Positions 1 to 54,965 of a stretch of 64,000 bases of DNA are shown here, in pieces. The stretch is from Pelomonas sp. Root1444 (GTDB lineage Bacteria; Pseudomonadota; Gammaproteobacteria; Burkholderiales; Burkholderiaceae_C), in assembly GCF_001426885.1 (NCBI RefSeq), contig NZ_LMFP01000028.1, positions 581,811 through 645,810 of the forward strand. Direction: 5' to 3'. The notes under the pieces are model-generated. The model searched no databases. It saw only the letters and a program-made list of their open reading frames with translations, and had not been told where the DNA came from. Each line of letters starts with the position of its first letter. Position 1 is the stretch's first letter. Position numbers and translations under genes: made by a program.

Positions 1-1
1 C

Positions 2-91
2 CCGTTCGAGAAGCGCGCCGTCTGGCACCGCATCAGCTTCGAGGGCACGGCCTGGCGCTTCAACCGCTATGCGGAGAGGGCAGCGCGATGA
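2..91 (+). CDS. 3' end of an unidentified gene (cut by window edge)
   Basis: An open frame enters from the left edge and ends at TGA 89-91, leaving 29 residues that finish NRYAERAAR. The composition is typical coding sequence for this genome. The visible piece (including HRISFEGTAWRFNRYA) is too short for me to assign a family. Its stop codon overlaps the ATG of the short element-encoded frame at 88-162, and the MATE exporter gene follows in the same direction, so the three are probably co-transcribed. Confidence 0.6.
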   Translation, partial: PFEKRAVWHRISFEGTAWRFNRYAERAAR

Positions 92-162
92 CGCGGGCCG
101 AGCGCCGGGCCGCCCCCTCGGGGGACCTGCCGACGTACCCGTCGGCCGAGGGTCAGACATGA
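88..162 (+). repeat. Intercistronic repeat element, copy 1 (coupling cassette)
   Basis: This stretch fills the whole gap between the upstream stop (TGA 89-91) and the MATE start (ATG 159-161). It is clearly related to the minus-strand stretch 53341-53433: 16 of 24 encoded residues are identical, with one 18-base in-frame length difference. It contains a C-run/G-run hairpin (113-124), a second hairpin with arms 130-135 and 140-145 around the loop TACC, and GAGGG (148-152) six bases before the next ATG. The 5' boundary is an ATGA overlap with the upstream stop and the 3' boundary is an ATGA overlap with the next start. I see no transposase or target duplication. Confidence 0.75.
88..162 (+). 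CDS. Possible 24-residue peptide or leader ORF inside repeat copy 1
   Basis: ATG 88-90 overlaps the upstream TGA as ATGA, and the frame stops at TGA 160-162, which overlaps the MATE ATG. The peptide shares its start (M-x-R-A-E-R-x-A-A-P), a central S-G-D, one Tyr and the C-terminal E-G-Q-T with the 30-residue frame in copy 2. Several codon differences between the copies are synonymous (CGG/CGA, GCC/GCT, GAC/GAT, GGT/GGG), and the length difference is a multiple of three. It may be translated only to carry ribosomes across the gap. A stable functional peptide is not shown. Confidence 0.35.
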   Translation: MTRAERRAAPSGDLPTYPSAEGQT

Positions 163-1502
163 CACGCATCCGTTTCACCGACAGCGTGCGCCGTCTGGTG
201 CCGCAGGCCTGGCCGGTGCTCGTCGGCCAGCTGGCTGTGATGATGTTCAGCACGGTCGACACGCTGATGATGGGCCGCGTGGGCGCGCAGGACCTTGCAG
301 CGCTGGCCGTCGGCTCCGCGGCCTACGTGACCATCTTTGTCGGGCTGATGGGCGTCGTGCTCGCCGTCGGGCCCATCGCCGGCCGTCAGTTCGGCGCGGA
401 TGACCGACCCGGTGCGGGCCGCAGCTTCGTGCAGGCGCAATGGCTGGCCTTGCTGCTGTGCGTGCCCGGCTGCCTGGCGCTGTGGTTCCCCGATCCGTTC
501 ATCTGGCTGGCCCAGCTCGACGCGGCGCAGGCCGCGAAGGTGCAGGCCTACACCCGGCCGGAAGCCTTCGCCTTGCCGGCCGCCCTGCTGTTCACGGCCT
601 TCCGCGGCTTCTCGACCTCCGTCAGCCGGCCCAAGGCCGTGATGGCGATGCAACTGACCGGCCTGGCCGCCAAGGTGCCGCTGAATGCATTGCTCGTATT
701 CGGCTGGGGCCCCATCCCGGCCATGGGCGTCGCTGGCTGCGGCTGGGCCACGGCGATCGCGATGACGGCCCAGGCGCTCGTCGCCCAGGCCGTGCTGAGG
801 CGCGATGCCTTCTACACGCCCTTCCGCATCCCGCACCTGTGGCACACCCGCCCGCAGTGGCGCGAGCTGCTGGGCCTGGTGCGCCTGGGCCTGCCGATGG
901 GCGGCTCCATCCTGGTGGAGGTGACGGGCTTCACCTTCATGGCCTTCTTCATCGCCCGCCTGGGCGCGACGCCGGTGGCCGGCCACCAGATCGCCGTCAA
1001 CCTCGTCGCGATGATGTTCATGATCGCGCTGGCGCTGGCCACCGCCGCCGGCACGCTGGTGGCCCAGCACCTGGGCGCCGACCAGAAGCGCGAGGCGCGC
1101 ACCGTCGGCCGGCATGCGATGGTGCTCGCGGCGCTGGTGGCGGCGGCCGTGGGCGCCGTCGTCGCGCTGGCGCGCGAGTCCATCGTGGCGCTGTACACGT
1201 CCAACCCCGAGGCCGCCGCAGCCGCGCTGCCGCTGCTGGTGTGGGTGTGGTTCTTCCACCTCGGCGATGCGCTGCAGACGGTGGCGGCCTATGTGCTGCG
1301 CGCCTACCAGGTGGCCACGCTGCCGATGGTCATCTACGTCATCGCGCTGTGGGGGCTGGGCATAGGCGGCGGCTACTTCCTCGCCTTCGGCGGCAGCGGC
1401 GTCGGCGCAGTGGGCTTCTGGCAGGCGGCCACGGCGGGTCTGATCGCCGCGGCGCTGTTGTTGAGCCTGTTGCTCAAGCGCGTTTTCAACGAGAACCGCT
1501 AG
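159..1502 (+). CDS. MATE family efflux transporter (NorM/MdtK-like)
   Basis: This is a 447-residue integral membrane protein with about twelve hydrophobic helices, the usual length for MATE exporters. The N-terminal segment PVLVGQLAVMMFSTVDTLMM-type sequence and the repeated G-H-Q-I-A-V-N motif after the middle are typical of the NorM/MdtK (DinF-related) group. That group exports cationic drugs and dyes in exchange for Na+ or H+ across the inner membrane. I chose ATG 159 because it has GAGGG six bases upstream and family-like sequence begins there; the frame is open upstream only because it runs through the repeat element. It probably forms an operon with the truncated upstream gene. Confidence 0.9.
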   Translation: MTRIRFTDSVRRLVPQAWPVLVGQLAVMMFSTVDTLMMGRVGAQDLAALAVGSAAYVTIFVGLMGVVLAVGPIAGRQFGADDRPGAGRSFVQAQWLALLLCVPGCLALWFPDPFIWLAQLDAAQAAKVQAYTRPEAFALPAALLFTAFRGFSTSVSRPKAVMAMQLTGLAAKVPLNALLVFGWGPIPAMGVAGCGWATAIAMTAQALVAQAVLRRDAFYTPFRIPHLWHTRPQWRELLGLVRLGLPMGGSILVEVTGFTFMAFFIARLGATPVAGHQIAVNLVAMMFMIALALATAAGTLVAQHLGADQKREARTVGRHAMVLAALVAAAVGAVVALARESIVALYTSNPEAAAAALPLLVWVWFFHLGDALQTVAAYVLRAYQVATLPMVIYVIALWGLGIGGGYFLAFGGSGVGAVGFWQAATAGLIAAALLLSLLLKRVFNENR

Positions 1503-51275: not shown

Positions 51276-52241
51276 TCAGCGCTCCTTCACGTAGGGCTTG
51301 CCCAGCGCCTTGGGCGCGATCGCAGAGCCAATGAAGCCAGCGAGCAGCACGACCGTCAAGATGTAGGGCAACGCCTGGATCAGCTGCACGGGCACCTCGC
51401 CGATGCCAGGCAACGCCACGCCCTGCATGCGGATGGCCACCGCGTCCAGGAAGCCGAACAACAGGCAGGCGCCCATGGTGGGCAGCGGCTTCCACTTGCC
51501 GAAGATCATCGCGGCCAGCGCGATGAAGCCGCGGCCGGCCGTCATGTTGGGGGAGAACGAGGCGTTCTGCGCCAGCGTCAGGTAGGAGCCCGCCAGGCCG
51601 CACAGCACGCCGTTCATCAGCAGCGCCCGGTAACGCAGGGCTTGCACGGACATGCCGGCGGCTTCGACCATCGCCGGGTTCTCGCCGACGGCGCGCAGGC
51701 GCAGGCCCGGGCGGGTGCGCTCCAGGAAGAACCACACCGCCGCGACCATCAGGAAGGCGACGTAGACCAGCACGTTGTGGCTCAGGAAGCCATGGCCGAA
51801 CACCGACGCGAACCAGTGGCCCGGCTGCGGCTCGGCGAAGCCCTTGGCCAGCGCCGTCAGGCGCACGTCGGGCTCGATGGGCGGCGTCTGCCCACCCTGC
51901 TGGAACCAGGCGATGCCCAGCACGACGGTGAGGCCGGCGGCGATCATGTTGAGCGCGACGCCCGAGACGACCTGGTCGCCGCGATTCGTCACGCAGGCAA
52001 AGCCATGCACCATGGACGCCGCACAGGCGACGGCGACGGCGGCCATCAGGCCGTAGGCGGTGGAGTGCGTGACCGACGCCGTCGCCGCGGCGGCGAAGGC
52101 GGCGAACAGCATCTTGCCTTCCAGGCCCAGGTCGACAACGCCGGCGCGCTCGGACAGCACGCCCGCCATCGCGCACAGCAGCAGCGGGGCGCTGACACGC
52201 AGCGTGGACGCGAGCACCGAGGCGATCAGGACTTCATCCAT
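51276..52241 (-). CDS. Nucleoside ABC transporter permease (second)
   Basis: A 321-residue membrane protein with eight or nine helices of the BPD_transp_2 family. The segments LLCAMAGVLSERAGVVDLGLEG and SGVALNMIAAGLTVVLG are typical of BMP-associated nucleoside permeases (NupC/YufQ-like). It forms a pair with the larger permease upstream, whose stop shares a base with this ATG (TGATG). The cdd gene begins one base after its stop. Confidence 0.9.
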   Translation of the reverse strand: MDEVLIASVLASTLRVSAPLLLCAMAGVLSERAGVVDLGLEGKMLFAAFAAAATASVTHSTAYGLMAAVAVACAASMVHGFACVTNRGDQVVSGVALNMIAAGLTVVLGIAWFQQGGQTPPIEPDVRLTALAKGFAEPQPGHWFASVFGHGFLSHNVLVYVAFLMVAAVWFFLERTRPGLRLRAVGENPAMVEAAGMSVQALRYRALLMNGVLCGLAGSYLTLAQNASFSPNMTAGRGFIALAAMIFGKWKPLPTMGACLLFGFLDAVAIRMQGVALPGIGEVPVQLIQALPYILTVVLLAGFIGSAIAPKALGKPYVKER

Positions 52242-53344
52242 CAGCGGCCTCCCTTGATGGCAGCGTAGAGGCGCGCGAACAGCGGCGCGCTGACCGTGGC
52301 CATCGCGCCGGAGAACAGCACGATCAGGCCCTGGGCCGTGACGACCATCTCGCGGCTGAAGCCTTGCAGTTCGAACGACACCTCGACACCGCCCTGGTAC
52401 AGCACGCCGAACAACAGCGACGCGAGCACGATGCCGACCGGGTGGTTGCGGCCCATCAGCGACACGGCGATGCCGGTGAAGCCGGCGCCCGCGACGAAGT
52501 CCAGCGTCAGCTTGCCCTGCACGCCGGAGATCTCGTTGATGCCCACCATGCCGGCCAGCGCGCCGGAGATGGCCATCGCCAGCATGACCTGCGACCGCGG
52601 GCGGATGCCGGCGTAGTGCGCGGCGCGCGGCGCGCTGCCGACCGCGCGCACCGCGTAGCCGGCCGCACTCTTCCACAGGAACCAGCCCACCGCCACGCAG
52701 GCGACCAGCGCCAGGACCAGGCTGAGGTTCAGCGGCGACGACGGCAGCTCATAGCCCAGCGCCGCAGCGATCTGGTGCAGCGCCGGCATGCGGGCGCTCT
52801 CGGAAAACTCGGCGGACTCCACCGACATGCTGCCCGCGGGGCGCAGCCAGTTCACCAGCAGGTAGGCGTTCAGCGCCGCGCCGAGGAAATTGAACATGAT
52901 CGTCGTGATGACGATGTGGCTGCCGCGCCAGGCCTGCAGGTAGGCCGGCAGCGCCGCCCACAGCATGCCGAACAGCGCGGCGGCAATGACCAACAACGGC
53001 AGCATGACGGCCGCCGGCAGCTTGGCGCCCAGCCACAGCGCCATCAACGCCACGCCCACGCCGCCCAGCGTCGCCTGGCCCTCGCCGCCGATGTTGAACA
53101 GGCCGGCATGGATGGCCACCGCGACCGCGAGGCCGGTGAAGATGAAGGTCGTTGCGTAGTACAGCGAATAGCCCAGGCCGCGCACGCTGCCCAGGGCGCC
53201 GTTCAACAGCACCGTCAGCGCCTGCCAGGGGCTGTGGCCGATGACCATGACGACCAGGCCGGCCACGACCAGTGCGACCGCCAGGTTCCACAGCGGCAGC
53301 AGGCCGACGTCGATCCAACGGGGGAGAGTCAGGGGTTGAGTCAT
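52241..53344 (-). CDS. Nucleoside ABC transporter permease (first)
   Basis: A 367-residue BPD_transp_2-family membrane protein. Family landmarks are YYATTFIFTGLAVAVAIHAG, FNIGGEGQATLGGVGVALMA and GINEISGVQGKLTLDFVAGAG. It pairs with the second permease to form the membrane channel (NupB/YufP-like). ATG 53344 is preceded by GAGGGG five bases upstream, which lies inside repeat copy 2. It is the only junction in this operon that is not nearly abutting. Confidence 0.9.
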   Translation of the reverse strand: MTQPLTLPRWIDVGLLPLWNLAVALVVAGLVVMVIGHSPWQALTVLLNGALGSVRGLGYSLYYATTFIFTGLAVAVAIHAGLFNIGGEGQATLGGVGVALMALWLGAKLPAAVMLPLLVIAAALFGMLWAALPAYLQAWRGSHIVITTIMFNFLGAALNAYLLVNWLRPAGSMSVESAEFSESARMPALHQIAAALGYELPSSPLNLSLVLALVACVAVGWFLWKSAAGYAVRAVGSAPRAAHYAGIRPRSQVMLAMAISGALAGMVGINEISGVQGKLTLDFVAGAGFTGIAVSLMGRNHPVGIVLASLLFGVLYQGGVEVSFELQGFSREMVVTAQGLIVLFSGAMATVSAPLFARLYAAIKGGR

Positions 53345-53433
53345 GTCTGCCCCTCGCCCGCGGTGTACCGCAGTCGATCCCCCGAGGGGATGCGAGCCGG
53401 CTCGGGAGCGGCCCAGCGCTCGGCTCGCTTCAT
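53341..53433 (-). repeat. Intercistronic repeat element, copy 2 (coupling cassette)
   Basis: Read on the minus strand, it runs from the ATG overlapping the ATPase gene stop to the TGA overlapping the permease ATG, so it fills the whole gap. It is homologous to 88-162 with an extra 18 bases that include the 12-base palindrome CGAGCCGGCTCG (53393-53404). Hairpins: ATCCCC/GGGGAT (53377-53391), and arms 53368-53373 / 53358-53363 with a TACA loop, in the same register as the TACC-loop hairpin of copy 1. GAGGGG precedes the permease ATG by five bases. Confidence 0.78.
53341..53433 (-). CDS. Possible 30-residue peptide or leader ORF inside repeat copy 2
   Basis: The frame starts at ATG 53433, overlapping the ATPase gene stop as ATGA, and ends at TGA 53343-53341, overlapping the permease ATG. 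The product begins M-K-R-A-E-R-W-A-A-P and ends Y-T-A-G-E-G-Q-T, matching the ends of the 24-residue frame in copy 1; six extra residues (EPARIP) sit in the middle. Whether a stable peptide exists is unknown. The conserved frame is what supports it. Confidence 0.38.
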   Translation of the reverse strand: MKRAERWAAPEPARIPSGDRLRYTAGEGQT

Positions 53434-54965
53434 GCAGCCGCCCTTTCTTCTTGGGCGGCCATCAACAGGCCCAGGCGCTTCTCGTCGCAGTCTTCGATGG
53501 CCAGCTCGCCCGTGATGCGGCCGCAGTTCATGACGACCACGCGGTCGGCCAGCGCCAGGATCTCGTCCAGCTCGCTGCTGACCAGCAGCACCGCGCAGCC
53601 GGCGTCGCGCAGCGCGCGCAGCTGGCCATGGATGAATTCGATGGCGCCAATGTCGACGCCGCGCGTGGGCTGGCCCACCAGCAGCACGGTCGGCTGCTCG
53701 CCGATCTCGCGGGCGAGGATGAGCTTCTGCTGGTTGCCGCCGGAGAACTTGCTCGAACCCAGGTTCTCGTCGCGCGGACGCACGTCGAAACGCTCCTGCA
53801 TCTGCTTCGTCGCGTCGCGCATCGCGGCATGGTTCATGGCCGCGCCCTTGCGGTACTTGGGCAGGTTCTGGTAGCCCAGCACGGCGGACTCCCAGGCAGG
53901 GAAGCTCATGACCAGGCCCACCGCGTGACGGTCTTCAGGGACATGGGCCAGGCGCAGCGGCCGGGCTTGCGCGGTATCCAGCCAGGCATCGGGCGTGAAG
54001 GCCTTGCCGCCCAGCTGCATGCGGCCGCCCTCGGGCGCGCGCAGGCCCGACAGCACTTCCAGCAGCTCGCTCTGCCCGTTGCCCGACACGCCGGCCACGC
54101 CGACGATCTCGCCGGCCTTCAGCGTCAGGCTCACGTCCTTCAGCGCCGGCACGCCGTTGGCGTGCTTGAGGCTCAGGTTGGCCGCGTGCAGGCGCACTTC
54201 GCCGGCATGCACTTCCAGCCCCTCGGGCCGGCCCAGCGTGACCTTGCGACCGACCATGGATTCGGCCAGCGCCTCCTCGCTCCACCCGGCGATGGGCCGC
54301 GTCTCGACGACCTGCCCCGCGCGCATCACCGTGACGGCGCTGCACAGGCTCATGACTTCGCGGAGCTTGTGCGTGATGAGGATCAGCGTCGTGCCGCGCT
54401 CCTTGAGCTTGCGCAGCGTGACGAAGAGCTGGTCGGTCTCCTGCGGGGTGAGCACGGCCGTCGGTTCGTCGAGTATGAGGATCCTGGCGCCGCGGTACAG
54501 GGCCTTCAGGATCTCCAGCCGCTGCAGCTCGCCGACGGGCAGGTCGCTGACCAAGGCATCGAGCTGCACGTGCAGCCCGGTTTCCTGCATCAGCGCGACC
54601 AGCTTCGCCCTGACCTTGGCCTTGGAGGCGCTCAGAAAAAAGCCACCTTCCGCGCCCAGCATGATGTTCTCCAGGCAGGTCAGCGTGTCGACCAGCATGA
54701 AGTGCTGGTGCACCATGCCGATGCCCAGGGCAATCGCCTGCTGCGAGTTGGCGATGTGCGCCGGCTGGCCGTCGATCTCGATCGTCCCCGCGTCGGCGTG
54801 GTAGTAGCCGTACAGGATGGCCATCAGCGTGCTTTTGCCGGCGCCGTTCTCGCCGACGAGACCATGGACGCTGCCCGCAGCAATGTCGAAAGACACCTCG
54901 CGGTTGGCTTGCACGGCGCCGAAGCGCTTGGAGATCGCCTGCAGGCGAACGGCGGGCGTGCTCAC
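53430..54965 (-). CDS. Nucleoside ABC transporter ATP-binding protein (tandem domains)
   Basis: A 511-residue protein with two ABC domains, as in RbsA/NupA-type importers. Domain 1 has the P-loop GENGAGKST, VHQHFMLVDTLTCLENI, signature LPVGELQRLEILKAL and Walker B ILILDEPT. Domain 2 has a degenerate P-loop GVSGNGQSE, signature FSGGNQQKLILARE and a Walker B variant VLLVGQPTRGVDIGA (Gly for Asp-Glu), usual for the second half of this family. The likely start is GTG 54965, seven bases after the binding-protein stop. Its stop overlaps repeat copy 2. Confidence 0.92.
   Translation of the reverse strand: MSTPAVRLQAISKRFGAVQANREVSFDIAAGSVHGLVGENGAGKSTLMAILYGYYHADAGTIEIDGQPAHIANSQQAIALGIGMVHQHFMLVDTLTCLENIMLGAEGGFFLSASKAKVRAKLVALMQETGLHVQLDALVSDLPVGELQRLEILKALYRGARILILDEPTAVLTPQETDQLFVTLRKLKERGTTLILITHKLREVMSLCSAVTVMRAGQVVETRPIAGWSEEALAESMVGRKVTLGRPEGLEVHAGEVRLHAANLSLKHANGVPALKDVSLTLKAGEIVGVAGVSGNGQSELLEVLSGLRAPEGGRMQLGGKAFTPDAWLDTAQARPLRLAHVPEDRHAVGLVMSFPAWESAVLGYQNLPKYRKGAAMNHAAMRDATKQMQERFDVRPRDENLGSSKFSGGNQQKLILAREIGEQPTVLLVGQPTRGVDIGAIEFIHGQLRALRDAGCAVLLVSSELDEILALADRVVVMNCGRITGELAIEDCDEKRLGLLMAAQEERAAA

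Follow-up and report, generated by a model that had tools for sequence, protein, structure and literature searches.

A short repeat family at gene stop/start junctions in Burkholderiales that may bridge translational coupling

When the stop codon of one gene overlaps the start codon of the next, how can a repeated element be accommodated between them? This question is raised by a stretch of DNA from Pelomonas sp. Root1444 (64,000 nt, hereafter the window), in which a short element fills the space in front of a MATE-family exporter gene (159..1502, + strand; Pfam MatE). A sequence-only reading of the window had proposed that the element is an interspersed cassette that couples the translation of neighbouring cistrons. 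We examined the family to which it belongs, the sites that it occupies, and the frame and hairpins that its copies share.

Two copies in the window and a family in the genus

Genes were called with our own simple codon-usage gene finder (54 genes, 95% of the window). Copy 1 occupies 88..162 on the + strand and follows a gene with Pfam domains DUF3717 and DUF1289, of which the window holds the 3' end (1..91, +; stop TGA at 89-91); this gene is whole in the genome and is cut solely by the window edge. The ends of copy 1 are as the sequence-only reading described them: the ATG at 88 overlaps the upstream TGA, and the TGA at 160-162 overlaps the MATE ATG at 159-161, producing an ATGA overlap at each end and a mini-ORF of 24 open codons in between. 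Within the copy lie the A module core GGGCCGAGCGCCGGGCCGC (95..113), the family's most repeated block, followed by a C hairpin, CCCC-TCG-GGGG (114..124), a D hairpin, CCGACG-TACC-CGTCGG (130..145), and an E end with a Shine-Dalgarno-like GAGGG (148..152; all +), which stands 6 bases ahead of the MATE ATG, as had also been noted. Compared with empty sites, the net insert is 71 nt.

Copy 2 was likewise found where it had been placed, at 53341..53433 on the - strand, between an upstream gene for an ABC transporter ATP-binding protein (53430..54965, -) and a downstream permease gene (52241..53344, -; Pfam BPD_transp_2). Its mini-ORF of 30 codons has the same kind of ends, with an ATGA overlap at each, and its parts are the A module core (53408..53426), the C hairpin (53377..53391), the D hairpin CTGCGG-TACA-CCGCGG (53358..53373) and a Shine-Dalgarno-like GAGGGG (53350..53355; all -). 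The net insert is 89 nt, and two congeners carry it at the same site. The 18-nt difference in length between the two copies is a single gap between the A core and the C hairpin, and 16 of 24 peptide residues match (counted by eye); both values agree with the earlier comparison.

A BLAST search of the own genome with a 79-base query returned 53 matches at E<=10 (139 candidates, 40 scored), with E=6e-5 for copy 2. The 5' core CGAGCGCCGGGCCGCYCC is present in 79 copies in this genome at no more than one mismatch, against 1 for the reversed-pattern control, and in 123 copies at no more than two mismatches (control 28). With one mismatch allowed, the core was found in 30 of the 60 genomes searched: the own genome and all 19 genomes of the same genus (16-137 copies per congener, control 0-3), 8 of 16 genomes of the family outside this genus, two of them with 23 and 26 copies and six with 1-6, and 2 of 24 genomes from elsewhere in the order, with 1 copy each. 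A search of this genome and its relatives for more copies, proposed earlier from the window, thus yields them in abundance, and the repetition of the element is not due to chance.

Alignment of the copies reveals a modular build: an A block, an optional B hairpin, the C hairpin, a D hairpin in a short or long form, and the end CGAGGGGC. Elements are about 70-160 nt long, with the B hairpin only in the longer copies. Loci L167, L184, L192, L197 and others have a longer recurrent 5' end near ATGAGACACCCTGTGTCAAC, possibly the element's full-length start. The exact end pattern of class F copies (defined below) was found in 13 of 20 genus genomes, 23 times in all (control 0), copy 1 not being an exact match, and a scan of genome contigs for the F-type end gave 91 matches in 89 stretches. 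Among the matches listed (80/89), the taxa are Burkholderiales, such as Roseateles, Pelomonas, Rhizobacter, Piscinibacter and Aquabacterium; Methylibium, Ideonella, Rubrivivax and Sphaerotilus are also among the matches listed, together with some metagenome bins named otherwise.

Rfam gave 0 matches in the window at gathering score. The genome has three Y1_Tnp (RAYT-like) matches, two of them above cut-off, and the element core is absent from their 3.2-3.3 kb loci; RAYT mobilisation was rejected on this ground. In the open-licence PMC literature searched, no paper describes this family in Burkholderiales by title or abstract.

Orientation of the copies and occupancy of their sites

To place the own-genome copies relative to genes, the 93 core matches in the fetched loci were reduced to 84 with at least 17 of 19 core letters (9 dropped), and these to 80 distinct copies after 4 locus-edge repeats were dropped. 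Seven of the 80 belong to class F, in which the GAGGGGC end lies 3-4 nt before a same-strand start; both window copies are included, and all seven (7/7) lie between co-directional genes. Class F is a minority of the family: 51 of the 80 copies are class R, whose GAGGGGC end lies at a distance of -1 to 11 nt from an opposite-strand gene's stop. Among the rest, 4 copies overlap called genes, two as same-strand fusions and two on the opposite strand; in 16, no GAGGG is found up to 45 nt from the next boundary; 1 is without a downstream gene call and 1 lies more than 260 nt from the next boundary. The arrangement described from the window therefore holds for both window copies but not as a family norm, most copies being reversed and lying directly after gene stops. 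On the strand of the gene, R copies start STOP-n-GCCCCTCG, and additional TGA codons are frequent.

The position of the R copies, which resembles that of 3'-end repeats, is in keeping with another explanation: the family could be an ordinary REP/MITE-like structured repeat, whose importance lies in its hairpins and 3' end (through protection of mRNA 3' ends, termination or mere persistence), the mini-ORF arising incidentally because the unit is GC-rich, poor in stops and ends in ATGA by chance. We consider this explanation unlikely, and the evidence on it is given as it arises below.

At one R site compared in 20 genomes, 3 genomes are filled and 17 have 14-30 nt from stop to start; given these gaps in the empty genomes, an overlap is not required for R copies. 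The 22 co-directional R copies were considered as a frame control and set aside, their stop-start distances modulo 3 (12/5/5 for remainders 2/1/0) not being clean.

The occupancy of F sites was followed at three junctions. At the MATE junction (20 genomes, parsed partly by eye), 12 genomes are empty, 2 carry an F copy (G000, the own genome, and G007), 2 an R copy (G002 and G003), 1 (G015) a short in-frame remnant, 1 is different and 2 were not parsed. All 12 empty genomes have a 4-nt overlap of the upstream stop with the start, as ATGA in 4, GTGA in 1 and CTGA in 7. The seven CTGA empties (L205, L207, L208, L209, L211, L212, L219) suggest that the MATE gene begins at CTG or at a different start codon. 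At the copy 2 junction (19 genomes), 13 are empty, all with ATGA (13/13), 3 hold an F copy (G000, G001 and G003, each with an 89-nt insert), 2 hold another repeat and 1 was not parsed. The other repeat (L225/L237, in G002 and G009) is an unrelated palindromic repeat of the CACAGAGGCACAGAG type, lying in the stop/start junction with its own spacer before the ATG. At the ureF-ureG junction (16 genomes), 12 are empty, again all with ATGA (12/12), 2 carry an F copy (G000, G010) and 2 a cousin element. The cousin (L269/L271, in G012 and G002) occupies the same ATGA site and runs from ATGA to ATGA; in L269 it reads MTKKRRTAPSFFIPLGGPDAQRQVGGLT* (by eye) and has a T run and a CCCCCTCGGGGGG hairpin.

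Pooled over the three junctions, 29 of the 37 empty genomes have ATGA. These comparisons show that F copies insert at stop/start junctions, and because the empty F sites are stop/start overlaps, the cassette entered an overlap and rebuilt one at each end. The nature of the empty sites speaks against the REP/MITE-like explanation, as does the G007 copy at the MATE junction, which is shorter and has lost the C hairpin but retains its ATG-to-ATGA frame. The presence of the element varies within the genus, and one junction may hold an F copy, an R copy or a cousin. At the rsmD junction, where the own genome has an N-terminal fusion, G000 alone is filled among 18 of 19 loci listed; 4 of the other listed loci have TGATG, 4 have the stop directly before the ATG, and the rest have gaps or a different upstream region.

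Frame, hairpins and peptide of the mini-ORF

If F copies arrived in arbitrary frames, about one third of them should carry an ORF that is set by the upstream stop and ends exactly at the downstream ATGA. The 91 F-end matches were reduced to 81 independent junctions by downstream protein (10 likely orthologues removed), at 74 of which the ATG of the element is also the start called for the downstream gene by the gene finder; 65 were usable, the other 16 being without a usable upstream stop. In 45 of these 65 the ORF ends exactly at the ATGA (binomial p=4e-9 against one third). The 45 starts, overlapping the stop or adjacent to it, are ATG in 30, GTG in 8, TTG in 1 and CTG in 5, with one further ATG at -1; CTG was counted as a start solely in the overlap position. 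Among the other 20, 8 end 1 nt before the ATG, 1 at +8, 4 run into the downstream gene and 7 end otherwise. Insert length alone gives a similar picture over the 65 junctions, with remainder 2 (in frame) in 43, remainder 1 in 15 and remainder 0 in 7.

Because the search pattern fixed the ATGA end, the frame test rests on the start frame. The upstream gene ends in ATGA at 38 of the 65 junctions, compared with 10 of 54 gene ends in the window; the remaining junctions have CTGA (12), GTGA (8), TTGA (4) or another stop (3). The overlap of 62/65 upstream stops with NTG was discarded as evidence: a 4-nt NTG overlap is automatic for any TGA stop, so that only the ATGA share and the frame count. Likewise, a constant 43-nt spacing (88/91 named F copies) was rejected as frame evidence, since reversed short-D copies share this geometry.

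The two halves of the insert also compensate for each other. Taking the distances from stop to A and from A to the end together, 45 of 70 copies are in frame compared with 31.1 expected if the two were independent (permutation p=2e-4, relatedness uncorrected); 21 of the 91 matches were dropped from this comparison (9 without an upstream same-strand gene, 7 with the stop more than 170 nt off, 4 without an A core, 1 read-through). Some of this compensation may reflect common descent of entire units. The end itself tolerates different frames: read from ~48 nt upstream in 81 copies, the frames stop near the ATG in 80/81, 0/81 (running on) and 35/81. Frame keeping is thus shown, and both the retained frame at independent junctions and the compensation of the halves count against the REP/MITE-like explanation, under which the mini-ORF is incidental.

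A further set of own-genome copies was picked independently of the F-end pattern (13 examined, 9 short F). All nine short F copies keep an open frame, either as far as roughly the next start or on through a fusion. Three of them, namely both window copies and the ureG copy, end at ATGA and have ATGA at both ends; three, one of which opens at a CTG, end in the interval from 2 nt before to 10 nt beyond the A of the following ATG; and three are fusions (2 N-terminal, 1 C-terminal, 0 internal). The fusion copies, at L083 (C7), L089 (C8, rsmD) and L084 (C11), form N-terminal extensions (of an ABC ATPase and rsmD, by eye) or C-terminal extensions. Four other own copies are F-oriented or weak: the long copy at L041 bridges, that at L032 runs past, its end motif lying 131 nt ahead of the next start, and at L051 and L093 the script detected no end motif. 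Tandem F copies were seen at L119, L122, L145, L191, L200 and L185. In L119, L122, L145 and L191 (Methylibium rhizosphaerae) and in L200 the inner stop is lost and the two units form one ORF, and in L185 the second unit begins at the first unit's ATGA.

What, then, is conserved in the mini-ORF? Covariation was evaluated in an alignment of 78 independent copies, 3 of 81 having been removed as not fitting. Pairing in the D hairpin reaches 95.7%, and 78 of 468 cells show double changes, whereas slid controls are 23-49% paired and shuffled partners reach a mean of 77% and a maximum of 80%. At the copy 2 junction, one D pair reads T.G, G-C and T-A in the three orthologous copies. Sequence comparison thus shows strong covariation of this predicted hairpin ahead of the Shine-Dalgarno. 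In the same alignment, codon positions 1 and 2 are as variable as position 3 and track the D stem, and the mini-ORF peptide has no protein-like conservation by this codon-position pattern. Because the variable codon positions are those of the covarying hairpin, it is the frame that is kept, not the peptide. The covarying hairpin and the unconserved peptide are both features that the REP/MITE-like explanation accommodates well.

The synonymous differences between copies had been taken as a sign of selection on the frame or on ribosome passage. They are no evidence of coding selection here: G000 and G003 differ at the copy 2 junction by 3 non-synonymous and 2 synonymous changes (by eye), and the variable positions follow the hairpin. 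On the codon-position pattern we also reject a conserved small protein or terminal tag family with a functional peptide, which we regard as barely credible. A recurrent C-terminal motif, IPSGDRPxYxxDEGQT*, and the three own-genome fusions (two at the N-terminus, one at the C-terminus) point towards such a peptide, but the A block is read in three frames and the fusion partners are unrelated proteins.

The hairpins raise a different possibility, in which the GAGGGG Shine-Dalgarno would stay paired with CCCCTC in the C module until freed by a translating ribosome. The two stretches are complementary by eye, and folding of 81 copies predicts the Shine-Dalgarno to be paired with a mean probability of 0.71. 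In the same folds, however, its pairing with the C module has a mean of 0.04 and the C module pairs with itself (0.89), which argues against a switch acting via the C module. Moreover, both C-loop bases vary while GAGGGG is constant, its constancy being fixed by the search pattern. We therefore consider an RNA switch of this kind highly improbable.

A proposed mechanism and its relation to known systems

We think it probable that the family is a short non-autonomous interspersed element, recurrent at stop/start junctions, whose F insertion bridges translational coupling. An F insertion lands where an upstream stop overlaps a downstream start, typically as ATGA, and leaves a stop/start overlap at each of its two ends. 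The upstream stop then overlaps the start of the short ORF within the element, and this ORF closes on the ATGA that opens the following gene, downstream of the GAGGGG Shine-Dalgarno supplied by the element. Ribosomes finishing the first gene could thereby reinitiate on the mini-ORF and then on the second gene, so that the insertion would bridge the coupling rather than break it. In differing frames, a copy is read as an in-frame extension of a neighbour, or ends a few bases off. From these sequence features we infer that the mini-ORF is translated with reinitiation, and the survival of F copies may be due to selection for uninterrupted ribosome passage.

Several observations weigh against this reading: a GC content of 70% makes open frames easy; the peptide lacks protein-like conservation; the frame may be inherited with the transposed unit rather than selected; the start codon is uncertain in 7 of the 12 empty MATE junctions (CTGA); the empty rsmD junctions are TGATG, stop-then-ATG or other gaps; and most copies are reversed and non-bridging. 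The original proposal of an interspersed cassette coupling cistrons stands as regards the many copies, the stop/start sites, the overlapping empty sites and the 45/65 copies in frame, whereas the coupling is a step that we infer.

The two orientations together are compatible with a two-faced, operon-adapted mobile cassette, which as F would rebuild the overlap with a start, Shine-Dalgarno and mini-ORF, and as R would form a gene 3' end with stops and hairpins; we put this forward as a tentative possibility. If true, repeats that depend on translational coupling for their spread evolved in these bacteria apart from mycobacteria, for which the excerpted text of a review (PMC12548453) describes a mobile repeat that survives in operons and carries its own coupling ORF. 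In this second lineage, dozens of independent junctions, natural empty sites and a covarying hairpin would make the MIRU idea (see below) testable, because the same gene pair exists without the cassette, with an in-frame cassette and with a reversed cassette. There is also a warning for annotation: N- and C-terminal extensions of proteins and tiny genes stem from the cassette.

REP and REP-RAYT elements are GC-rich hairpins with many intergenic copies. The present family resembles them in both respects, and in its R copies at gene 3' ends. It differs in ending within about 11 nt of stops or 4 nt from starts, in carrying a Shine-Dalgarno and a mini-ORF, and in having no core beside the three Y1_Tnp matches of the genome. 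Rickettsia palindromic elements (RPE) are, in the excerpted text of PMC10969869, ORF-bearing repeats of ~150 bp, which can form in-frame fusions with genes and lie inside ORFs. The Burkholderiales family, in contrast, lies at stop/start junctions, with fusions in the minority (3/9 short F copies).

The closest likeness is to the mycobacterial interspersed repetitive units (MIRU), reportedly described by Supply et al. in 1997. The stop/start overlap sites targeted by MIRU are named DTGA. MIRUs are not known to have dyad symmetry and are oriented like the neighbouring genes. According to the excerpted text of the 2025 review (PMC12548453), the MIRU is apparently mobile and inserts at the start codon, and its internal ORF is coupled to the gene at -4 nt, which likely limits the effect of the insertion. 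As far as that text goes, the two families share a short interspersed multi-copy repeat whose ORF ends overlap the flanking ORFs (here 45/65 end at ATGA). They also share stop/start insertion, the empty sites here being ATGA in 12/12 and 13/13 genomes and, at the third junction, 4 ATGA, 1 GTGA and 7 CTGA. The Burkholderiales family differs in its covarying D hairpin, its frequent reversed mode behind stops (51/80) and its phylum. Because the hairpin and the reversed mode differ from these features of MIRU, we do not claim MIRU membership; the likeness is by design, not descent. By analogy, the family is an interspersed operon-adapted cassette of the MIRU kind, and what it has beyond the mycobacterial MIRU are its hairpins and the reversed mode in which it lies at the 3' ends of genes.
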